This document shows, piece after piece, positions 1-30,619 of a stretch of DNA of 43,206 nt (position 1 is its first letter; each line of letters starts with the position of its first letter). The DNA comes from Treponema sp. (GTDB taxonomy: Bacteria; Spirochaetota; Spirochaetia; Treponematales; Breznakiellaceae). Made by a program: the position numbers and the translations under genes. The notes under the pieces were generated by a model that was given only the letters and a program-made list of their open reading frames with translations, was not told the origin of the DNA and did not search any database. The stretch covers positions 1 to 43,206 of the forward strand of contig JAIRYT010000050.1 in assembly GCA_031267675.1 (NCBI GenBank), read 5' to 3'.

Positions 1-588
1 TCACCGGGGAACAACCGGTATCGCCGGTGACTATTCCGCCCGAGGGGATACAGGATCTCCGGGGATTGTTCTCCACATACCGGCTGTATCAAAAACAGCA
101 CGTTCAGCTTAAAAACCGGGTTCTCCTCAATGCCAAACCGTACATGGAGCAGATAGACATACTTACCGGCATGAAAGGGGATAGCCGTTATAGCGGATAT
201 TATAGACGTGAGCCGGTTTAAGGACTCCAAACATTTTACCTCGTATTTACGCTCGGCGCCGCGGGTGGCGAACTCCAACACGTCCGTAAGTATCCGCGGG
301 ACGAACAAGAAGGGGCGGAAACTTGCCTCGACACTGTTGACCCGGTCGTTGATTCATATGACGAGAGCCGGTACGAAACTGGGGAGGTGGTATGAACGGT
401 TGTGCGAGTACAAGAAGGCGGGATTGGTGAGGATGGGATTACGGCGGCGGGTATTAGCGGAGATCTATCAGATGCTCAAGAAACGGGAATACCATTATGC
501 CTTGGACCCGCGCAACCATGAAACCAAGATGGCGCAATACCGCTCCTTTCTTGAGAAAACCGGGGGAAATCCAAAAAAAATAGCTTGA
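1..588 (+). pseudogene. IS110-family transposase, 3' remnant, frameshifted
   Basis: The gene enters from the left edge already open, so the N-terminal RuvC-like DEDD domain is outside the window. The first part (frame of base 3, to about base 177) reads ...LRGLFSTYRLYQKQHVQ..., the linker region of IS110 enzymes. The reading then continues one base further on, from base 178, as GIAVIADIIDVSRFKDSKHF and on through GTNKKGRKLASTLLTR to a stop at 588, matching the C-terminal Transposase_20 domain. The shift falls at AAAGGGG (bases 174-180) and fits a one-base insertion. IS110 enzymes normally have one frame, so this copy is probably dead; programmed frameshifting is the less likely reading. Family assignment is by recognised motif pattern only. 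Confidence 0.72.
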
Positions 589-642
589 CTTTTATCATCG
601 ACTTCCGCGACTTTTTGCGGTTGTAATTTTTCCGCGGGGTTT

Positions 643-722
643 GGGGGTGTTGCGGGGAACTCCCCGCAGAGGGGGTAGCGGAGGACCGCAGGGCCGGAGC
701 GAGGGGGAGGCTTCCCCCTTTT
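643..722. other. GC-rich multi-hairpin element after the transposase
   Basis: Two strong inverted repeats are visible. TGCGGGGA/TCCCCGCA lies at 651-668 with almost no loop. GGGGGA/TCCCCC lies at 703-718 with loop GGCT, followed by TTTT, so it could terminate rightward transcription. Between them the sequence is purine- and G-rich. It may be the end of the IS110 element, a terminator, or an unrelated intergenic repeat; nothing here decides. No gene is seen between 589 and 763. Confidence 0.45.
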
Positions 723-763
723 CCTTGTCTCAAATAGCCCGTTTGTTTTAGTTTGCCTGTCGT

Positions 764-1537
764 TTACAAAAATAACAGTGTCGCGGATACCAGGGTAAGG
801 AGGTAGATCAAAATGCGGAATTGCTTTTCCGGTATTCGTTTCACCAGAAAGACGCCCAAGAGCGCGCCAAGGATAATTACCGGGAACATCATCGCGTCCA
901 GGATAAGTCCTTTTTTGCCGATGTTGTGCCAGACAAAGTGCTGCAGGGGAAGTTTTAGATAATTGACGATAACAAAAAACCAGGCGGTCGTTCCAACATA
1001 GGAAATCTTGGGGAGCTGCATGGAAAGCATAAAAATGGCCATGACGGGACCCGCCGCGTTTCCAATGAGGGTCGAAAAGCCGCCGAGTATGCCAAACCCT
1101 GCGGCAAACCACCAGCCTGAAGGAACAAGTATCTCCCGCCCTTCGATCCGCTGGCGGGCCTTGCGCAGATCGTTCCAAACCATAACGATGAGTCCCGCGA
1201 GTATCGAAACGGCAATTAATATTTTAAAAAGGCGCACCGGAATAAAATAATCGACCAGCAGCGCCGCGGCAAAGCCGGACAGGGTCCAGGGTAAAAGGCG
1301 CGCAATATGTTTCCAGGCAACATCCTTGCGGTACGAAAAAATTGCCAGGAGATCGGCAAAACAATACATGGGGAGCACAATTCCTGTTGATTCTTTGGCG
1401 CCAAAAACAAGCGCCATAACGGGAACCATGACAGTGTTTATGCCGCTTAAGCCGGTTTTTCCCATTCCGATGAGCAGCGCGGTAACAATAAGAACGGTCC
1501 ACTGCCAGCTTTCAAAGGCAAAGGGCAGATTACTCAT
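764..1537 (-). CDS. TauE/SafE-family membrane permease
   Basis: A 257-residue, very hydrophobic protein with about eight membrane spans in two halves. The first half has the GMGKTGLSGINTV segment (about residues 24-36) and the second an equivalent GGFSTLIGNAAGP segment (about 151-163), the paired Gly-rich signature of TauE/SafE (DUF81) proteins. Family members export sulfite or organosulfur anions or act as uncharacterised anion permeases; the substrate cannot be read here. The start overlaps the end of the upstream exported-protein gene by four bases (ATGA), so translation is probably coupled. It is the last gene of the leftward rpmH-jag cluster. A role in exporting sulfonate breakdown products would be speculation, although a possible sulfoacetaldehyde-type operon lies 10 kb away. 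Confidence 0.8.
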   Translation of the reverse strand: MSNLPFAFESWQWTVLIVTALLIGMGKTGLSGINTVMVPVMALVFGAKESTGIVLPMYCFADLLAIFSYRKDVAWKHIARLLPWTLSGFAAALLVDYFIPVRLFKILIAVSILAGLIVMVWNDLRKARQRIEGREILVPSGWWFAAGFGILGGFSTLIGNAAGPVMAIFMLSMQLPKISYVGTTAWFFVIVNYLKLPLQHFVWHNIGKKGLILDAMMFPVIILGALLGVFLVKRIPEKQFRILIYLLTLVSATLLFL

Positions 1538-2331
1538 GTCTGGCGCCGCAGTTTGGCAAACGCGCTGTCTGCCTGTTTGGTAAACCAGTCAAGAATCGCC
1601 TGGGTGCGGTTGCTGAATGATTTGCTTACCCGATCGGTTAAACCCGGAACGGAGGCAGCCTTTGCCATTGAGACTGTGTAGACAAGAAGGCTGTCGCCGG
1701 CGTCAAATACCGCTACCAGCGAACGCAGTTTATTTTTTCCTACTGCGGGAATTATGCCATAACTCATCGCGGTAAGATTTTCCTGCACAAAGATAAAGTA
1801 ATCGGCGGCGGCGGTATACTGATACCGGTAAACATTGTCGCCGAATGAAAGATCTTTTTGGCGGGCGTACACAATAAGCGACGGCGGCGGATCGGCGTAA
1901 TAATAATCCGCGCGTTTTGTTTTACCGTCGCTTCCGCTTACGGTAGCGGAGCTTTCGTAAAAGATGCGCATTCTGCCCCTGCTTGCCGAGTAGTATTCAA
2001 GCCCCGCCAGACTGCTTAGTTCCAGGACGCTGTTGTACAGGGCCGCCCGCTCCGCCGCACTCCATTCACCCGCGCGGGGTTTTTGATACCGGGCCAGGCT
2101 TTCGCCAAAAAAGCTCGGCTCCAGTTCGCCGATAAGGGCGCTTACCATATTTCTGACACGGCTTTCGCGGGGGGCAAGATTAAGGGAGGGGTTTTTAAAC
2201 TGCATTTGATTGACCCGCTCTCCACGGCGAAGGGCGGCGGCGCTTTGCGGATCAACCAAATCTTCCAGCGAACGGGAAGACACTGTCTGCACGGCCAATA
2301 CTGCCAGCAGTATTGTTAAAAATTCTTTCAC
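1534..2331 (-). CDS. Exported protein of unknown function
   Basis: A 265-residue protein starting at GTG, with a GGGAG ribosome site about eight bases upstream. The N-terminus is a short signal peptide (hydrophobic stretch about residues 4-17, then VSSRSL), with no clear lipobox cysteine, so a periplasmic or outer-membrane-associated location is likely. The mature part has a helical N-terminal half rich in Arg and Glu and a C-terminal half rich in Tyr/Ala beta-like segments. I do not recognise a catalytic motif. It lies between jag and the TauE-like permease and overlaps the latter, so it is probably co-transcribed with the membrane-biogenesis genes. The family looks restricted to spirochaetes, but this is an impression, not a search result. 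Confidence 0.7.
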   Translation of the reverse strand: MKEFLTILLAVLAVQTVSSRSLEDLVDPQSAAALRRGERVNQMQFKNPSLNLAPRESRVRNMVSALIGELEPSFFGESLARYQKPRAGEWSAAERAALYNSVLELSSLAGLEYYSASRGRMRIFYESSATVSGSDGKTKRADYYYADPPPSLIVYARQKDLSFGDNVYRYQYTAAADYFIFVQENLTAMSYGIIPAVGKNKLRSLVAVFDAGDSLLVYTVSMAKAASVPGLTDRVSKSFSNRTQAILDWFTKQADSAFAKLRRQT

Positions 2332-2372
2332 CCCTTACTCCCTTCCTTCACGCATGATGAATTCTCATCTGT

Positions 2373-3098
2373 TTACTGGCGCAGCCCCCGGTAGTAAACA
2401 CGCACCTGCTTATATAAACCTTCGCCTTCGCTTTTGGTTTCAACATCGGTGATGTCATTTAACGTGGTGTGAACAAGACGGCGATCAAAGGGATTCATCG
2501 GCTCCAGCAAAATGGAAGCGCGGTTTTCGCGCACGCGGTCTGCTACGGTGTACGCCAGTCGAACCAGCGATTCTTCGCGGCGGCGGCGGTAGTTTTCGGT
2601 GTCCAGAATGATCCGCATATCGTCATGGCCCTGGCGGCCGGCAAAAATATTGGCAAGCAGTTGAAGCGCGTCAAGGTTTTTTCCTTTTTTTCCAATCAGT
2701 ATCGAAGAGCTTTCCGATTCAAGCTTAAGTCCAAGTTTGCGATCTTCGCGGTAAAGGATTGAAACCGTTCCCCGGTAACCCATGCGCTCAATAATCCCTT
2801 CGACAAAGGCGATTATGTTTTTTTCGAATTCCCCGGAGGGGACAACGGGTGTATTGGGCCTTGTGCGGGAACCTTCATCCGCCGGTGTTCGTCCGGGTTC
2901 CGGCCGTGCGCTCACCGGCGTATATCCGGGAATCGGGCCGTCGGTGTGAACCTGAATTTTCACAAAGCCTTTTTTAAATAATCCCGATTTTTGGGTTTCA
3001 AGGATTTCTACATCAAAATTATCTTTTTCAAGACCCAATTCCGCTGCGGCCCGGTCAATGGCTTCTTTTTCGGTGCGGCCCTCAAATTCATATATCAC
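2373..3098 (-). CDS. jag: Jag/KhpB-type RNA-binding protein (KH-R3H)
   Basis: A 241-residue protein with the usual three-part layout. The N-terminal Jag domain (about 1-52) begins IYEFEGRTEKEAIDRAAAELG. A Pro/Arg-rich linker (about 53-90) follows, then a KH domain with the GKKGKNLDALQ loop (GxxG) and a C-terminal R3H domain with the Arg-x3-His pattern in FDRRLVHTTL. Family members bind RNA and act with KhpA in cell elongation and division control. The gene directly follows yidC, as in many bacteria. GTG at 3098 is chosen because AGGAG lies eight bases upstream and the Jag domain starts at residue 2. Confidence 0.9.
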   Translation of the reverse strand: MIYEFEGRTEKEAIDRAAAELGLEKDNFDVEILETQKSGLFKKGFVKIQVHTDGPIPGYTPVSARPEPGRTPADEGSRTRPNTPVVPSGEFEKNIIAFVEGIIERMGYRGTVSILYREDRKLGLKLESESSSILIGKKGKNLDALQLLANIFAGRQGHDDMRIILDTENYRRRREESLVRLAYTVADRVRENRASILLEPMNPFDRRLVHTTLNDITDVETKSEGEGLYKQVRVYYRGLRQ

Positions 3099-3154
3099 CT
3101 GTATACTCCTGTCTGCGCGGTTTTTACCGCGAATGGTTTTTTAGACAAATCCTG

Positions 3155-4960
3155 CTACCGGCGTTTTTTACGGCGCGGCGCGATTACCGGCTGTTGTTCG
3201 GCTTCCCTGCTTTTTAGTTCAGCGCGTTTCTTTTTTAAGTACTTGTTAAGGGCAAGCTGCTGTACCAGGGTAAAGAGGTTGCTCATAATCCAAAATACCA
3301 AAAGGCCGGAAGGAACATTGTACAGCAGAAAAAAGAACATAATGGGCATTGCGTACACCATCATCTTCATCGAAGGATTCCCCTGCTGGTCGGGCGTACT
3401 GGTGGCAAAGCCGTAAAGCAGCTGGGAACCCAGATAAATAAACGGAAGCAGGCGCAGGCTGTCCCAGTTTAAAAGGGGAACGGTGTTTGCAAAATGGTAA
3501 ACCGATTCCGGCAGTGAAAGATCGGGAATCCACCCGGAAATAAACATGGCGCCGCGTAAATCAAAATGATTGTTAAACAAATTATACATGGCAAACAGTA
3601 TCGGCATTTGTATCAACAATGGAAGGCAGCCCGACATGGGATTATGCCCTTCGCGTTTGTAAAGGGCCGCCATTTCGGTATTGAGTTTTGCGGCATTATC
3701 CTTGTACTTTTCCTGCAGTTCCTTGATTTTGGGAGCAATTGCCTGCATTTTAATGCTCATCTCCGAACTTTTTTTGGTCAGGGGAAAGAGTATTATTTTT
3801 ACCAGCAGCGTTAAAAGAATAATTGCCACGCCATAGTTTGGCCGGGGAAGAAGGTTGTAAAAGAAACGCAGCATTAGTTTAAGTATCCATTCCAGGGGGC
3901 TTAAAATGCCGCTGGTACTTGCCGCCTTGATAAATTGTAAATCGCGCAGTTTATAGGCATTGTTGCCGGTGTCGTAGCGGCCCAGATCATCCTGGGTTTT
4001 GGGGCCCAGATAAAAATAGTAGGAATCACTTGCCCGCGCGACAGCCAAAGCGGGCCGCATTAAATAAAAGCGCGACGCTGCGGGAAGTCCCGCCTCGGGT
4101 TCCGCGGAAAACCCCATCGTATACGGCGTCGCCCTGTCGGCGGGCACCGCCAAAGCCGCAAAGTATTTTCCGGCAATTCCGGCCCAGGCAAAACCGCTTC
4201 CAATCACCTGGGGAGACCCCTCGCTTACCTTTTCTGTTTTACGCTTTCCGTCTACCATATCAATATATTGGCGGGTTTCGTAGCGATCAAGTTTTTGAAA
4301 ACCGGGGCCCATCTGGGGGCCGTACGCCAGGGTATAGGCGATATTGTTAAAGCCAAGGGGAATATTCCCGGCGCTTTCGACAGAAACAGTCAACGCGAAC
4401 ATATATTCATTGCCGGTAAAATCGTAGCGTTTTTTTAGGGTAAACATTCCGCCGGGCGCGTTAAAATCTCCGCTAAACTCTACCGAAAGCGGATTACCGG
4501 CAGGCCGCGAAACCTTAAAATGGGAAGAAACCGGCAGCGCGTCCATTCCGCCAAAGGCGATGGTAAACGCGTGGGATTCCTTTCCCGGCGGCGAAAGCAC
4601 CATCTGGACCGCTTCGTCTTTATCTTTATGCTGTTTAAGCCGGTACGAAACAATATCGCCGCCCCGGTTGCTTAGAACAACGCTCAGCAGTTCTGTTTCG
4701 ATGACTACCGTTTCGTCGTTTTCTAAATTGCCGGTTTCTGTTACCTCTGCCGGAACACCGGCATCGACCGCGGCGGTTACCGCCGCCGGGCTTACGACTG
4801 CGGACGGTGTAAGCGCCGGGCTGACGGCGTCATTCGCCTGCTGTGTCTGCTGCGCCTGTTCGGCTGGCGCGGCCGGTGGAAAAAATTTATACTGAATCGC
4901 GTAATAGCTAAACAGTATAGCCGCAGAAATCGCTACAAAAAGCAATGTTTTCTTATCCAT
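3155..4960 (-). CDS. yidC: Membrane protein insertase YidC
   Basis: A 601-residue protein of the Gram-negative type. It has an N-terminal membrane anchor (about residues 5-26), an Ala/Pro/Val-rich linker, a large periplasmic P1 beta domain (about 75-330), then the conserved insertase core with five predicted spans from [20 protein letters not shown] to the end. The cytoplasmic coiled hairpin [13 protein letters not shown]...KELQEKY and the [15 protein letters not shown] segment are diagnostic. It inserts and folds inner-membrane proteins with or without SecYEG. The basic tail (RRKKRR) is suited to ribosome contact. The start overlaps the end of yidD by eight bases, so the two are translationally coupled. 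Confidence 0.96.
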
Positions 4961-5189
4961 GTAAATTCCTTATCGTTTCCGGTACCGGATCATAACCGCC
5001 CTTGTGCAAGGGGTGACAGCGAAGAATCCGTTTAACCGCTAAATATATGCCGCCGGCCGCGCCGTGTTTTCGCACCGCCTCCATCGCGTAGGCGGAACAG
5101 CTTGGATAGTAGCGGCATCTCCCTGGCAGATGAGGCGAAACCGCCATTTGGTAAACACGGATTAAAAGCAGAACAAACCAGCGCATCAT
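4953..5189 (-). CDS. yidD: Membrane protein insertion efficiency factor YidD
   Basis: A 78-residue protein with an amphipathic N-terminus followed by the family core: [22 protein letters not shown], then [17 protein letters not shown]. The three cysteines and the CHP-x-GGYDPVP ending are characteristic. YidD is a small peripheral inner-membrane protein that helps insertion of YidC substrates. It sits between rnpA and yidC, overlapping rnpA by four bases and yidC by eight, so the three genes form one compact translational unit. Two ATG codons stand in tandem at the start; either could be used. Confidence 0.95.
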
Positions 5190-5494
5190 AATAAACCTGC
5201 CCGCGCAAAAAGGATTTTAAACTGATTTGTACGGGACTCCAGCGTCGACTTTTCGCTCATAACCAGAAAAATCAAATCATAGCCGGTTTTAAGGGAGGGC
5301 CGCATAAGACGATATGCCTCGCGGCTTACCCTGCGTTCACGGTTCCGTACCACGGCGTTTCCAAATTTTTTTGAAAAAGTAACCACAATCCGGTTATGGG
5401 GAAGGCCATTGTCCAAAAAAAAGAGTACCAGCCCCGGACAACCAAGGCGCCGGCCCTTCTTAAAAACTCTGGCAATTTCATCCCGTTTTTTCAA
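5186..5494 (-). CDS. rnpA: Ribonuclease P protein component (start uncertain)
   Basis: RnpA binds the RNase P RNA and helps 5' maturation of tRNAs. The visible core is [15 protein letters not shown], then [28 protein letters not shown], which contains the RNR motif. The only canonical start codon in frame is TTG at 5494, giving 102 residues, but it has no ribosome site. The frame stays open upstream and encodes [15 protein letters not shown], which matches the usual RnpA N-terminus better. No ATG, GTG, TTG or CTG occurs in that extension back to the stop at 5612-5614; an ATT at 5585-5587, overlapping the end of rpmH, is the only near-cognate option noticed. The true protein is therefore probably longer than listed. 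Confidence 0.88.
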
Positions 5495-5582
5495 ACGCTC
5501 ATGCTGTCTAAATCGAAAAGGATGTTCGGCAGGATGTTCCGGTTTTTTTTCGACATCCCGCGTCTGACCCTCCGACCGCTCG

Positions 5583-5738
5583 CTAATAGGGCTTTTTCTC
5601 GTCCGCGGCGGTCAGTTTATACCGCCCTTTTGCCCGCCGCCGCTTAAGTACTAAACGACCGCCCCGGGTCTTCATCCGCGCCCGAAACCCGAATTTACGG
5701 TTCCTTTTTACCTTGCTGGGCTGATAAGTCCGCTTCAT
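5583..5738 (-). CDS. rpmH: 50S ribosomal protein L34
   Basis: A 51-residue, highly basic protein beginning [20 protein letters not shown] and continuing [18 protein letters not shown], the invariant L34 sequence. It ends TAADEKKPY, slightly longer than the usual 44-46 residues. GAGGAG lies about six bases upstream of the ATG. It heads the leftward cluster rpmH-rnpA-yidD-yidC-jag, the classical arrangement near many bacterial origins. No dnaA or DnaA-box cluster is seen on the other side, where deoD lies instead. Confidence 0.95.
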
Positions 5739-5849
5739 GGGAACTCCTCTATTATTTCAGAAAAACCGGCCCCCGCCGGCATCTGCCAGGATACAGTTTA
5801 TCGGACCAGTGTGCTGTGTTTGGGAAAAAATGTCAATACAAGGGATTTC

Positions 5850-6548
5850 CTATGAAACCAGCGTCTCAAGCGCCACTTCCATCATGTGGGTAAAGGCGCT
5901 TTGCCGTTCTTTGGCGCTGGTAGTTTCACCGGTAACAAGGCTGTCCGAAATGGTAAGAATACCCAGCGCTTCGCGGCCAAATTTGGCGGCCAGGGTGTAA
6001 AGCTCCGAAGTTTCCATTTCCATGGCAAGGCAGCCATAATCGGCCCACAGTTTCCAGTCGTCTCCGGAGTAAAAAATATCCGTTGAAACGACGGGCCCTA
6101 CTGCCGGCGTCCATCCCTTTGTCTGCGCCGCGTCCCAGGCTGCCTTGAGCAGCTTCCAGCTGGCGGCGGGGGCATAATCGCGTCCCCCAAAACGGAGGCG
6201 GTTTACCCCCGAATCGGTACAGGCTGACTGGGCGAGCACCAAATCGCGCAGCTTGATCGTCTTTTGTATGGTTCCCGCCGTTCCAATGCGTATGGCCCGC
6301 TGTACGCCGTAGTCGTGAAAAAGCTCATGCAGGTAAATTGAAATGGACGGAATTCCCATGCCGGTTCCCTGAACCGATACCCGCTTTCCCCGGTAGGTTC
6401 CGGTAAATCCAAACATATTGCGTACTTCATTGTACGGTCTGGAATTTTCAAGATATGTTTCGGCAATAAATTTTGCCCGTAACGGATCGCCGGGAAGCAG
6501 TATCGCTTCGGCGATTTCGCCGGTTTTGGCGGCAATATGTGTTGACAT
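5850..6548 (-). CDS. deoD: Purine-nucleoside phosphorylase, DeoD type
   Basis: A 232-residue protein matching the hexameric, bacterial-type purine-nucleoside phosphorylases. The N-terminal [25 protein letters not shown] holds the phosphate-binding GDPLRAK loop; the middle has the GTGMGIPS segment; the C-terminal part has [12 protein letters not shown], whose Met-Glu contacts the ribose, and TISDSL with the base-binding Asp. The enzyme splits purine nucleosides with phosphate to base plus ribose-1-phosphate. The GGAG ribosome site is good. It has no obvious operon partner. Confidence 0.95.
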
Positions 6549-6625
6549 CTTCTCTCCTTGCGGTTCTGTTAAAAGTATAATGGCAGATCAATGCGGGCGC
6601 AACCAATTGGCTCGCCGCGAACCGG

Positions 6626-7819
6626 CTACAGGGTCCGTTTTACCTTCATAATCCGCAAAAACGATTCCTCGATCCGCGCGCTGGAAACGCGGCCTGTTTT
6701 TACCAGATCAAACACGGTGTCAATAACGTCTTTGGACAGGGAGGGATTAAATACGGCGCCGTTATTCGAAAAAGCCAGAATGTCCACGCCGGCGTTGATT
6801 GCGGTTTCAAGAGTGGTTTTAAGATCATAGCGGGAGCCGATTGCCGCCATTTCAAGATCGTCAGAAATAATCAGGCCGGTAAAATTGAGCCGCTCGCGAA
6901 GAATTCCCAAAAGCGCCGGTTTTGACAGGGTCGCCGGATATTCGGGATCGACGGTTTTGTTAAACACATGGCTTGTCATAATAAAGGGGAGTTTTCCCGC
7001 GCTTTGTCCCCAGTCAACAAGATTACGGTAGGGAACGAGTTCTTCTTCTGTCCAGGTTTCGCTTACATCGACGGTGCCCCGGTGGGTATCGCCCCGGGAA
7101 CTGCCGTGGCCGGGAAAATGCTTGGGACAGGAAAGCACGCCGTATTTTGCGTGCGCGTCGATCCAGATTTTTGCAAAGCGTGTTACGGTTTCGCTGTCCG
7201 CGGAAATGCTGCGGCCGTAGGCGCCAATAATCGGATTGGCGGGATTTATGTCAAGGTCCACACAGGGCGCAAAATTCAGGTTTACGCCAAGCTCCGCCAA
7301 AAAACGGGCTGTTTCTTCGGCTGTTGTTTTATAACTCTGCGTACCGGCGGCGGCCAGGTCGCGCGCTGTTTCACTTTTGGCAAACGCGGGAAAACTGCGC
7401 AGCCGGTTTACCCTGCCGCCTTCCTGATCGATGGCAATAAAAAGTTTTACCCCGCCCGAAGCGTTTTGAATATCCGCGCAAAGTCCGGCGAGCTGTTCTT
7501 TGCCCGCTTTTCCGTCAATATTGCGGGGAAACGAACGGGTGGGCATATCATAATCAAAAAGCACCACGCCGCCGATTCCCCGGTGTGCGATGTCTTCGTA
7601 CAGGGGATTGCCCTCAAGGCTTGTACCGCGAAAACCAACGAGCAGCATTTGGGCGATTTTGCCCCGGAGTACAATGTCGGGGTCGTTGCTTGCAAGCAGC
7701 GCGTTGCTTTCTGGCCTCCGCGCCGAGGACTGGCAGGATGCGGCAAACATACACAAAATTACTGCCGCCAAAAAACGGGACACGCGGATTTTTTGGGGTA
7801 TACCGGTTTTATGCGTCAT
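6626..7819 (-). CDS. Glycoside hydrolase family 3 lipoprotein, NagZ-like
   Basis: A 397-residue protein with a lipoprotein signal (FLAAVILCMFAASC, Cys about residue 29), so it is probably membrane-anchored in the periplasm. The GH3 barrel contains AIDQEGGRVNRL, KHFPGHGSSRGDTHRG (the NagZ His/Asp loop that supplies the acid-base dyad) and GLIISDDLEMAAI with the nucleophile Asp. Such enzymes remove beta-N-acetylglucosamine from muropeptides or chitin oligomers. Classical NagZ is cytoplasmic and about 340 residues long; the lipid anchor suggests work on cell-wall or dietary amino sugars outside the inner membrane. GGAG lies before the ATG. No sugar transporter is nearby. Confidence 0.88.
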   Translation of the reverse strand: MTHKTGIPQKIRVSRFLAAVILCMFAASCQSSARRPESNALLASNDPDIVLRGKIAQMLLVGFRGTSLEGNPLYEDIAHRGIGGVVLFDYDMPTRSFPRNIDGKAGKEQLAGLCADIQNASGGVKLFIAIDQEGGRVNRLRSFPAFAKSETARDLAAAGTQSYKTTAEETARFLAELGVNLNFAPCVDLDINPANPIIGAYGRSISADSETVTRFAKIWIDAHAKYGVLSCPKHFPGHGSSRGDTHRGTVDVSETWTEEELVPYRNLVDWGQSAGKLPFIMTSHVFNKTVDPEYPATLSKPALLGILRERLNFTGLIISDDLEMAAIGSRYDLKTTLETAINAGVDILAFSNNGAVFNPSLSKDVIDTVFDLVKTGRVSSARIEESFLRIMKVKRTL

Positions 7820-27342: not shown

Positions 27343-27425
27343 GCGCATTTTGCCGGCCCTGGTCTTTGCCGCAAAACCCTTGTCAGGGCTGTCAAAGCGT
27401 CGCAAACGGCCGGAACGTTAGGCGC
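27343..27425 (+). repeat. attC-like imperfect inverted repeat A
   Basis: Nested complementary segments interrupted by symmetrical bulges: GCGC (27343) with GCGC (27422), CCGGCC with GGCCGG, CTTTG with CAAAG, and CCCT with AGGG around TGTC. The right end carries GTTAGGC (27417-27423), a perfect match to the integron core consensus GTTRRRY. The left core is poorly conserved. Size and layout resemble a degenerate attC site. Confidence 0.4.
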
Positions 27426-27450
27426 AAGCCCAAAAAAATTTTAAAAGTGG

Positions 27451-27479
27451 TTGACAGAATGAAAGAGAAGGGATATAGT
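27451..27479 (+). promoter_or_regulatory. Cassette promoter
   Basis: TTGACA, a 17-base spacer, then TATAGT. It lies 26 bases after the end of the attC-like repeat and drives the lipoprotein at 27540. Confidence 0.72.
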
Positions 27480-27539
27480 GGATTTACGAAGAATTTAATA
27501 GCTACCAATATAGCAATACCTGTTTTGGGGGGTGATAGT

Positions 27540-27908
27540 ATGGGGAAAATTATAGGCTGCATATTTCTTTTTTCAATAATGGTGGTTCCATCATCGTGTA
27601 CATTATTACAGCTAACTAACGACGTATTACAGATGGCTGAAGACGTAAACACTTTTGATACAAAAAATGATGACGAAAGCTATCCGGGCAATGTAAAAAT
27701 ATACATTGAAAACAGGGCCAAGGAAATAATTGTAGTATATGATTATGACTTTTTTAGAGGTGTTGAACTTGCCCGAATTCCGATGGGAGGGGTACAATTA
27801 ATAAATATAAAGAAAGGCAAAACAATATATGCAAGCGGCGGAAGCACCAAAAGGCCTTATTCAAAAATTATTTGTGATACCGATCAGGAAAAGTATCCAA
27901 TATATTGA
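27540..27908 (+). CDS. Small lipoprotein of unknown function
   Basis: A 122-residue protein. The frame is open from 27366, but the promoter at 27451-27479 rules out the earliest start; ATG at 27540 has GGGGGTGAT upstream and puts a hydrophobic signal with a loose lipobox (VVPSSC) at the N-terminus. The mature part includes NVKIYIENRAKEIIVVYDYDFFRGVELARIPMGG and looks like a small beta domain. I do not recognise it. The gene is AT-rich and lies alone between attC-like repeats A and B. Confidence 0.6.
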   Translation: MGKIIGCIFLFSIMVVPSSCTLLQLTNDVLQMAEDVNTFDTKNDDESYPGNVKIYIENRAKEIIVVYDYDFFRGVELARIPMGGVQLINIKKGKTIYASGGSTKRPYSKIICDTDQEKYPIY

Positions 27909-27989
27909 GCCTTTCCAAAGCTCAATTTTGGTAATTTTTTCAACATTTATTATCAAATGGTTCAAAATGACACGGTTTTAGGCAAAAAA

Positions 27990-28083
27990 GCATATTTCAA
28001 AAAACCGGATAAGGGCCCGGTCTTGCTACAGGCCCTTATCCGGGCCGGCAGAACATCGCATATACCCGGAACGTTATGCGCAA
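27990..28083 (+). repeat. attC-like inverted repeat B
   Basis: A perfect 13-base stem, CCGGATAAGGGCC (28005-28017) with its complement at 28031-28043, is flanked by GCATA (27990) and a right core GTTATGC (28073-28079) in the context CCGGAACGTTATGCGCAA. Repeat A has the near-identical context CCGGAACGTTAGGCGCAA, and both share a GGTCTT-like central loop. The strong stem could also be a terminator for the upstream lipoprotein gene, though no T-run follows. Confidence 0.42.
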
Positions 28084-28111
28084 TTTGTTAAAAAAATCCT
28101 AAAATTATCTG

Positions 28112-28140
28112 TTGACAGCAGGGATGTTTTGCGGTATAAT
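28112..28140 (+). promoter_or_regulatory. Perfect consensus cassette promoter
   Basis: TTGACA, a 17-base spacer, then TATAAT: full agreement with the sigma-70 consensus, 29 bases after repeat B and 26 bases before the next start codon. Confidence 0.85.
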
Positions 28141-28165
28141 TTGAAAAATTATGGAGGTGGTTGTA

Positions 28166-28735
28166 ATGATAAAGAAAATGAACGCGACTGGGTTTTTGGC
28201 TGTTTTAGCCGTTTTAACGGTGCTTTCGGCTTGTGTTTCACAGCCGGTGACAAGAAATGTTATTGATGACATTGGCGGTATACTGGACATCAACCGGTTT
28301 CAGTATTATGTATCTTCCGATATAAGGCTAACCGCAACTGAAAGGGTGAGGGAGCCAAACGTTGACAGGAGCGGTACTGCCAGTGTAAAGGAAACAGCAT
28401 TCCGGGATATTATTGTAATAAATAAAAGTACGATGGGAGTTTTAATGGATTCAAGAACGGACGAAGACGGTTTAATGATACTGGAAATATGTTTTGAAGA
28501 AAAGCCGTCAGACAGCGATAAAAGGATACTGTTTAAACAGGAAAGGGCGGGGTCAGAACAAAAATTTTATGTTTTCTATACGGACCTGCGGAGGCGGATA
28601 CTAAAATACGGAGATGTTGAATACAGCCTTGAGACAAAAAAAGGGCAGAGACCATTTTTAGAAATAAAAATAAACAGGAAGGAAATAGAAAATGAACGAA
28701 TTAGAAAGGTAAAAGGCAGGAAGGTAGAGTATTAA
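28166..28735 (+). CDS. Lipoprotein of unknown function
   Basis: A 189-residue protein. ATG at 28166 is chosen over ATG 28151 because the latter overlaps the GGAGGTGG ribosome site, and the downstream one leaves the right spacing. Signal peptide with a good lipobox (FLAVLAVLTVLSAC). The mature part contains YYVSSDIRLTATERVREP and LEICFEEKPSDSDKRILF, predicted mixed alpha/beta. No known domain is recognised. It is framed by the consensus promoter and repeat B on one side and inverted repeat C directly after the stop codon, like a one-gene cassette. Confidence 0.72.
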   Translation: MIKKMNATGFLAVLAVLTVLSACVSQPVTRNVIDDIGGILDINRFQYYVSSDIRLTATERVREPNVDRSGTASVKETAFRDIIVINKSTMGVLMDSRTDEDGLMILEICFEEKPSDSDKRILFKQERAGSEQKFYVFYTDLRRRILKYGDVEYSLETKKGQRPFLEIKINRKEIENERIRKVKGRKVEY

Positions 28736-28750
28736 CATACAAAGAACAAA

Positions 28751-28778
28751 CTGCGCATAACAGACCGGTTATGCGCAG
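28751..28778 (+). repeat. Inverted repeat C with attC-type core ends
   Basis: Perfect 11-base stem CTGCGCATAAC/GTTATGCGCAG around the loop AGACCG. The GTTATGC arm equals the right core of repeat B, and AGACCGG is the complement of the central CCGGTCT of repeat B. It could be a collapsed attC site or a terminator-like hairpin. Confidence 0.45.
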
Positions 28779-28830
28779 TAAATCCTCTATTCGCAGTTCA
28801 CGGCGGTTCGCAGTGGGGGTTTAATGCCCT

Positions 28831-28950
28831 GTAGTGTCAGCTTATTAGAAAATCGGCAAAAAACTGATGGTGATAAAAATTTTTTGACAGAAAGCCGTCA
28901 AGAAATGGGATGCGGAGGTGGAAAACAGGCCAAAAACAGCTTGGTTTTTT
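28831..28950 (+). repeat. Direct repeat family, copy 1
   Basis: Begins GTAGTGTCAGCTTATTAGAA and runs about 120 bases to an AACAGCTTGGTTTTTT end. Copy 2 at 29686 matches over its whole length with scattered changes. A translated frame inside contains DINENVLYRWIQRSKA, which resembles the helix-turn-helix of IS3-type OrfA proteins, so the repeat may be a decayed IS remnant. The stretch from 28951 to 29136 holds no recognisable gene; it has an ATCTTC/GAAGAT fold around a GTACCGGTT/AACCGTAC pair at about 29008-29086. Confidence 0.5.
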
Positions 28951-29676: not shown

Positions 29677-29685
29677 GTCCGACCC

Positions 29686-29800
29686 GTAGTGTCAACTTAT
29701 TCGAAAGACGGCAAAAAAACCGAAAGCGGGAAATTTCTAACGGAAAGTCGTCAAGAAGTGGGATACGGAGTAGAAAACAGGTTGGAAACAGCTTGATTTT
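29686..29800 (+). repeat. Direct repeat family, copy 2
   Basis: Begins GTAGTGTCAACTTATTCGAA, ten bases after the stop codon of the exported-protein gene, and matches copy 1 to its AACAGCTTGATTTT end. Confidence 0.6.
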
Positions 29801-30194: not shown

Positions 30195-30195
30195 C

Positions 30196-30228
30196 GTAGT
30201 GTCAACTTATTAGAAAATCGGCAAAAAA
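30196..30228 (+). repeat. Direct repeat family, copy 3 (short)
   Basis: GTAGTGTCAACTTATTAGAA and on to CGGCAAAAAA, about 33 bases matching copies 1 and 2, after which similarity is lost. Confidence 0.55.
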
Positions 30229-30619
30229 GCCAGGAATTTGCCAAAAAACAACATGATTTTTGACATGCGGACACAGTTATCCTGCTGTGAAAGCTTTGAG
30301 TTAGTAAATTGCAACAAATAACGCCTACGCCGCTTCGCGGTAGTAATGGTTGTGTAATCCAAAGAGAAGAGGATTTAACCGTGATGTCAAATAAGTATTT
30401 TTTCTTCGTAAACTTCTTTGACTTCTTCGACTTTGAGGTAAAAAAACCCACAGGGTGCATAGAAGGCGCGAAACCCGAAAAGCGGCGGCTTCTGTTTAAT
30501 CGCTCCGGTCGCCAGCTGTTCGGGCGGGGCGTTGACACCAAGGACCGCTGCGGCATACCGGCATATGTAACGACCGCGCTGTTTGCGTCCGGAACAGCGG
30601 CCAATCCGGGCTCCCTCCC
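30229..30619. other. Intergenic stretch at the island's right edge
   Basis: No convincing gene. A CTACgCCG-cTT-CGGTAG-like hairpin lies at about 30332-30349. A frame of 83 codons from ATG 30384 has a weak GAGGA upstream, but composition switches abruptly to GC-rich at about 30440, where all frames stay open, so coding is doubtful. The switch probably marks the border between the AT-rich island and the housekeeping block. Confidence 0.35.

Follow-up and report, generated by a model that had tools for sequence, protein, structure and literature searches.

The window considered here is a stretch of 43,206 nucleotides from a Treponema sp. of the family Breznakiellaceae. Between positions 27343 and 28778 it carries three attC-like sequences (sites A, B and C) that alternate with two short genes, as follows.

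27343-27427, plus strand: site A, the right half of an attC-like site, ending in CCGGAACGTTAGGCGCAA, with the R' core GTTAGGC at 27417-27423.
27418-28073, plus strand: predicted cassette 1, running from G^TT to G^TT, with bounds predicted by means of the GTT cores and the junction rule found in relatives (see below).
27451-27479, plus strand: promoter-like sequence TTGACA-17-TATAGT at the start of cassette 1 (11 of 12 letters).
27540-27908, plus strand: cassette 1 gene, 122 aa, with a paralogue on contig C102 of the same genome (77% DNA identity).
28005-28083, plus strand: site B, a right half ending in CCGGAACGTTATGCGCAA, with the hairpin at 28005-28043, L', the spacer and R' GTTATGC at 28073-28079; the left half is missing.
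28074-28768, plus strand: predicted cassette 2, whose first bases and the R'' of site C are complementary (10/10).
28112-28140, plus strand: consensus promoter TTGACA-17-TATAAT at the start of cassette 2 (12 of 12 letters).
28151-28735, plus strand: cassette 2 gene, 194 aa, with homologues in genomes G082, G001 and G079.
28751-28778, plus strand: site C, a collapsed site CTGCGCATAAC-AGACCG-GTTATGCGCAG, with R'' GCATAAC at 28755-28761 and R' GTTATGC at 28768-28774.

The ends of sites A and B, their GTTAGGC and GTTATGC cores and the GCATAAC/GTTATGC arms of site C agree in sequence and coordinates with the preliminary description of this DNA, as does the presence of a single short gene between A and B and another between B and C; both genes lie on the plus strand. 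Sites A and B are direct repeats of each other over 51 nt, with 76% identity. Site A retains the inner hairpin, L', the spacer CCGGAAC and R', and it lacks its left half (R'' and L''). The left-hand cores of A and B had been described as weak, but they are absent, full copies elsewhere being 140-190 bp long. In site C, R'' and R' form a palindrome with the two boxes 6 bp apart, and the L boxes and the loop are gone. The resulting layout, an 11-6-11 bp palindrome, is Xer-site-like and is probably a by-product of hairpin loss. When folded as a single strand, site A does no better than shuffled sequences, and site B retains the inner hairpin. Thus, with R'' and L'' missing from A and B and the L boxes missing from C, none of the three is an intact attC site.

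A covariance model scored site A at 33.7 bits (E 9.7e-8), site C at 19.6 bits (E 5e-4) and two pieces of site B at 16.5 and 10.1 bits. Since this model (R1) was built from eight copies in the same genome that were found through their similarity to site A, the score of A is partly circular, and the window scores support relatedness rather than an independent identification. An Rfam search of the region returned sub-threshold chance matches and no attC-like family. Neither the 122-aa nor the 194-aa gene product has a match in Pfam.

The surroundings of the sites contain several other features. A gene for an RlaP-type RNA-repair nucleotidyltransferase (PF10127; 26452-27300, minus strand) abuts site A on the opposite strand, and an RtcB RNA ligase-like gene lies between two shortened sites beside the cassette-1 paralogue on C102 (locus L020, approximately 22.5-24.1 kb). 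To the right of site C, a second, unrelated repeat occurs between short genes at 28830-28950, 29685-29800 and 30195-30231. It contains TGTAGTGTCARCTTATTAGAAAATCGGCAAAAA, its first two copies carry GTCAAGAA-TGGGAT-CGGAG further along, matching pieces are found on contig C19 (L136), and it possibly represents insertion-sequence remnants. We looked for an empty site by way of def and fmt in 10 relatives and could define none; def-fmt is mostly syntenic, and the left flank was not found beside it.

The site family is not confined to the window. The genome from which the window derives (G000) is a 2.49-Mb assembly of 110 contigs that is 88% complete. Searching it with positions 27343-28778 identified 18 further places on other contigs, the best match (2.5e-36) being the cassette-1 gene paralogue and the repeat copies reaching down to 8.8e-23, and a covariance-model scan of the same genome yielded 42 sites at E<0.05. 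Many of the copies, of which there are at least 40 besides A, B and C, are dispersed and single, on both strands, and some lie beside housekeeping genes. Full-length copies measure 140-190 bp and share a conserved inner hairpin; their left end reads AACTKCGCATAAC-AGGN-CTGTTTACG and their right end CGTAAACAG-CCGGAAC-GTTATGCGCAA, so that their layout, R''-spacer-L''...L'-spacer-R', is that of an integron attC site. Two full copies folded as single strands gave z scores of -5.5 and -6.0. In an alignment of eight copies that was not fitted to the structure, 17 pairs have changed on both sides, and 92.5% of cells are paired, as compared with 32-43% when the partners are slid. Full-length copies in this genome thus have both the boxes and the imperfect hairpin of attC sites, of which A, B and C are incomplete versions. 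Sites are strongly enriched at contig ends (21 of 33 within 1.5 kb, against 13% expected; p 2.5e-11), indicating that their copy number is underestimated and that an integrase could have gone unassembled.

A strong promoter-like sequence occurs within 150 bp after 12 of 21 sites in the window's genome versus 9.4% of AT-matched controls (Fisher p 1.2e-7). In the cassette array of genome G035, described next, the figure is 5 of 41 sites. Away from an integron promoter, cassettes with their own promoter would be the ones kept.

A model search of 59 relatives produced matches in 30 genomes; the same family accounts for 29 of these. The complete genome G035, a single contig of 4.65 Mb, has 41 sites between 3,521,954 and 3,560,491, all on the same strand, spaced by 141-1714 bp and directly after an integrase gene. 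Their R boxes are variable (GTTAGAC, GTTATGT and others). The longest open reading frame runs in the direction of the array in 38 of the 41 cassettes, the remaining three being units of about 300 bp with no open reading frame. If cassettes are joined as in integrons, each starts with the TTRRRY of the preceding site, and the R'' of a site should be complementary to that start and not to its own downstream R'. We observed that the reverse-complemented 7-mer of R'' equals the previous R' at 35 of 40 junctions and the site's own R' at 3 of 40. Over 20,000 shuffles of the cassette order, matches to the previous R' averaged 7.1 and never exceeded 18. This pattern is the signature of recombined integron cassettes. 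The first R'' of the array also predicts an attI 7-mer, GTTAGAC; the 12 kb upstream contain this 7-mer a single time, 150 bp past the integrase stop codon.

These junctions bear directly on whether the repeats could be MITE- or REP-like dispersed palindromes with terminal inverted repeats, unrelated to integrons and with the genes between them there by coincidence. The many single copies scattered over both strands of G000, some of them next to housekeeping genes, are what such elements would look like. However, the terminal repeats of a mobile palindrome should match within a copy, and the ends of the G035 copies match across the neighbouring cassette rather than each other (35/40 versus 3/40). 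The sites in that array also share one orientation, mostly with one gene per interval and with an attI by the integrase, and the arrangement is repeated in several genomes of at least two families. We therefore regard dispersed palindromes of this kind as a barely credible account of the sites, and take up again the reading of them as integron-derived.

The junction rule was also observed in G020 (3/3), G031 (4/4), G005 (7/7 seven-mers) and G011 (3/3 and 2/2); G004 follows it less clearly. In G031, locus L080 (contig C136) has its array at 182-5870 on the plus strand facing an integrase at 5891-7081 on the minus strand. This integrase thus lies beyond the end of the array, in the opposite orientation, and its match carries a flag for one TAA. 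When junction chains were sought with no use of the site model, arrays emerged behind related integrases in G055, which belongs to another family of the order (five links versus at most two in shuffles), on contig L226 from IMG/VR and in the Rufibacter genome L196, as well as single links with an attI in G019 and G038. Applied to classical Treponema integrons, the same detector gave chains of 3-5, barely above background, and these were not used as a positive control. In every case measured, the integrase stop codon and the predicted attI downstream of it are 116-361 bp apart (150-361 bp in G035, G019, G020, G055 and G038, and 116 bp in L226); the window contains no attI. The L226 contig (IMGVR_UViG_3300000568_000548, 4770-10780), which is classed as viral, has a domain-less integrase, an attI and 88-bp sites. 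The L196 locus (Rufibacter sp. SYSU D00344, 15174-17883) has 60-bp attC-like sites with five consecutive junctions approximately 4.5 kb downstream of a domain-less integrase, so the class may extend to Bacteroidota. Outside Spirochaetota the distribution was sampled rather than surveyed, and it covers at least these matches.

As for the window itself, A and B fall outside the junction test because they have lost R'', and site C passes it in a way that does not discriminate, since its own R' matches as well. No sites were found around the homologues of the cassette-2 gene in G082, G001 and G079, and the G082 homology stops inside the predicted cassette bounds. The nearest homologues of the cassette-2 gene are not cassettes, which counts against reading the window as a cassette cluster; its two genes are putative cassettes.

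The integrase at the head of the G035 array differs from known integron integrases. Nothing in G035 scores above the IntI family cut-off. By sequence, the best match of the array integrase is the integron integrase IntI4 (2A3V), to which it aligns in two pieces with approximately 42 IntI residues missing between them, and it aligns to archaeal XerA (4a8e, 5hxy) with no such gap. In a wider alignment, the additional domain of IntI (I2) is absent from all 17 integrases of the new class in the order (18 rows, one being a duplicate of the G035 query) and present in all 12 classical IntI proteins of the same order. A tree built by a quick method places the classical IntI proteins in one group (support 100) and the members from family f1 in another (support 95) outside IntI, together with relatives from Bacillota, Bacteroidota and other Spirochaetota. 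The predicted structure of the L226 integrase (pLDDT 84) likewise has 2A3V as its first Foldseek match, with 262 residues aligned. Residues 68-338 of this model (271 residues) span 2A3V 1-311, indicating that the IntI insertion has no counterpart in it. The N-terminal 100 or so residues of the domain-less integrases contain, in most members, a short domain with a W...W.IP-type motif that is absent from the XerC and XerD proteins compared. Genome G030 (loci L088 and L093), which is probably T. azotonutricium, encodes one nearly full-length integrase of the new class with its reading frame uninterrupted, together with a second copy that matches in two reading frames, and it carries five sites.

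The sites of the new class also differ in geometry from classical ones. Their L stem runs without interruption. Most spacers measure 2-4 nt toward R'' and 6-7 nt toward R'. The R'' side is the shorter in 40 of 41 sites of G035, in all six resolved sites of G000, and in 3/3, 4/4 and 4/4 sites of L226, L196 and G055, respectively. In the classical Treponema sites that we examined, it is the R'' side of the L stem that has an extra base. Such an extrahelical base on the R'' arm, a mark of classical attC sites, was not found in the new class, the extra unpaired bases lying on the R' arm of the spacer instead. In the consensus fold of G000-type sites, an alternative pairing, a single base bulges out next to the GG/CC pairs. 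Because of this base we dropped the proposition that extrahelical bases are lacking altogether and restrict the claim to the reversed spacer asymmetry. Domain I2 has been described as accommodating the extrahelical bases of attC and as not identified elsewhere (PMC4792948), and integron recombination has been said to depend on it (PMC9668308, citing Messier and Roy 2001). An altered hairpin geometry and a missing I2 would be mutually consistent.

We also considered whether the sites are acted on by the chromosomal XerC and XerD in the manner of pdif modules, at least in genomes with no integrase. pdif sites are 28-bp double-stranded XerC/XerD sites, and pdif modules resemble the present arrangement in that short recombinase boxes flank single genes. 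Both XerC and XerD are encoded in the window's genome, site C has the 11-6-11 bp palindromic form, and the R box TGCGCATAA resembles the XerC half of E. coli dif. In contrast to pdif, full sites here are hairpins of 140-190 bp with covarying L boxes and variable R boxes (GTTAGAC, GTTATGT and others), and only the collapsed site C has a 28-bp layout. A dedicated integrase, moreover, heads the arrays. Unlike Xer-type recombinases such as XerA, the one in G035 leads a cassette array, matches 2A3V best by both sequence and fold, and possesses an extra N-terminal domain. We consider it very unlikely that XerC/XerD account for these sites, and an integron-like system acted on by its own integrase is the reading that we retain.

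The window's own lineage lacks a detectable integrase. As the preliminary description had proposed, we looked for intI elsewhere in the genome, and none exceeded the IntI cut-off in G000; a search for either class, classical or domain-less, was negative in this assembly (88% complete, so that an integrase may be unassembled), in G001 of the same genus (95% complete, 6 sites) and in G011 (98% complete, 21 sites). The prophage-type integrases on contigs C71, C76 and C67 were rejected as candidates for the missing enzyme, those on C71 and C76 being phage-type and none reaching the IntI model, and the recombinases on C25 were identified as XerC and XerD rather than IntI. Domain-less integrases were found in 14 of 36 genomes of the family, and in most draft genomes the contig stops within about 4 kb behind the integrase, as expected from repeats. 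In family f1, most genomes with no integrase retain sites, so that sites and integrase are only loosely associated across draft genomes.

A cluster that still works, with A, B or C recombined by an integrase acting in trans or missed in the assembly and with mobile cassettes, would fit the incompleteness of the assembly and the enrichment of sites at contig ends. Site C, which retains R'' and R' and whose R'' matches the start of cassette 2, points the same way, and exogenous integrases are able to excise or capture cassettes of the clusters known as CALINs (PMC9668308). Against this, A and B are wholly devoid of R'' and L'' and have no site fold, C has no L boxes, and the 95% complete genome G001 of the same genus is without an integrase of the domain-less class. 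We judge a working cluster to be improbable. We prefer, with a probability of roughly 0.8, to interpret the window as what is left of a cluster of integron cassettes, in a lineage where no integrase is detectable, the full system being integron-like in relatives. The missing halves suggest that A, B and C have lost their function.

In the full system, a tyrosine recombinase would use an attI just downstream of its own gene, and the attC-like sites would fold as single-stranded hairpins in the order R''-spacer-L'' ... L'-spacer'-R', a folding that presumably takes place in vivo. The integrase would operate with no I2 on hairpins in which it is the R' arm of the spacer, and not the R'' arm, that has additional unpaired bases; that the domain-less integrase performs the recombination is inferred from the many exact junctions and the variable box sequences. 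In the window's genome, the sites are dispersed and would be decaying into halves and collapsed palindromes, and the surviving cassettes often have a promoter of their own next to the site.

The preliminary description had proposed an integron cassette cluster with no integrase. The part of this that stands is that the sites are integron-derived remnants, of the same family as those that form the array of 41 cassettes with exact junctions in G035; an intact attC site is not among them. CALINs are clusters of attC sites lacking an integron-integrase and have been proposed to be degraded integrons (PMC9024848). The window resembles them in having cassette-like genes between attC-like sites with no integrase nearby. 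It differs in that the window sites are halved or collapsed and in that relatives do have an integrase, one without the domain that IntegronFinder requires. Two or more intact attC sites are expected of a CALIN; linked full sites are found elsewhere in the window's genome. Because that program requires I2 in the integrase (PMC9668308), complete domain-less integrons would be filed as CALINs.

The comparison with the chromosomal integron of T. denticola that had been drawn concerned the wrong integron. Both types have an integrase that reads toward the array, an attI just downstream of it, single-gene cassettes and GTTRRRY/RYYYAAC boxes. Unlike the T. denticola type, which uses a classical IntI with the additional domain and sites of about 60 bp, the new class has sites of 140-190 bp with reversed spacer asymmetry, has no additional domain and forms a separate clade, and it occurs among treponemes reported to be integron-free: no traces of integrons were described in the termite-gut species T. 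azotonutricium and T. primitia (PMC3607928). The arrays in relatives have the attI beside the integrase, the array of RYYYAAC/GTTRRRY hairpin sites and the G^TTRRRY junctions of integrons. Since the additional domain, another usual mark of an integron, is absent from all 17 integrases, we class the system as a variant rather than a plain member.

On balance, we lean toward a separate class of integrons whose integrase never had I2 and whose hairpins have a mirrored asymmetry. Its range would take in Spirochaetota, contigs classed as viral and at least one genome of Bacteroidota; it could go back to a pre-I2 state or to an independent origin of cassette capture from a Xer-type recombinase, and present tools would score it as CALIN. 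We found no description of a domain-less integron integrase in the open-access literature searched, and its novelty is provisional. I2 is the marker by which integron integrases are detected. Arrays with exact junctions headed by integrases that lack it would mean either that hairpin recombination is possible with no I2 or that cassette capture arose more than once. The view of termite-gut treponemes as free of integrons (PMC3607928) is thereby revised, and the finding suggests that some clusters filed as integrase-less may have at their head an integrase that is invisible to the search model.
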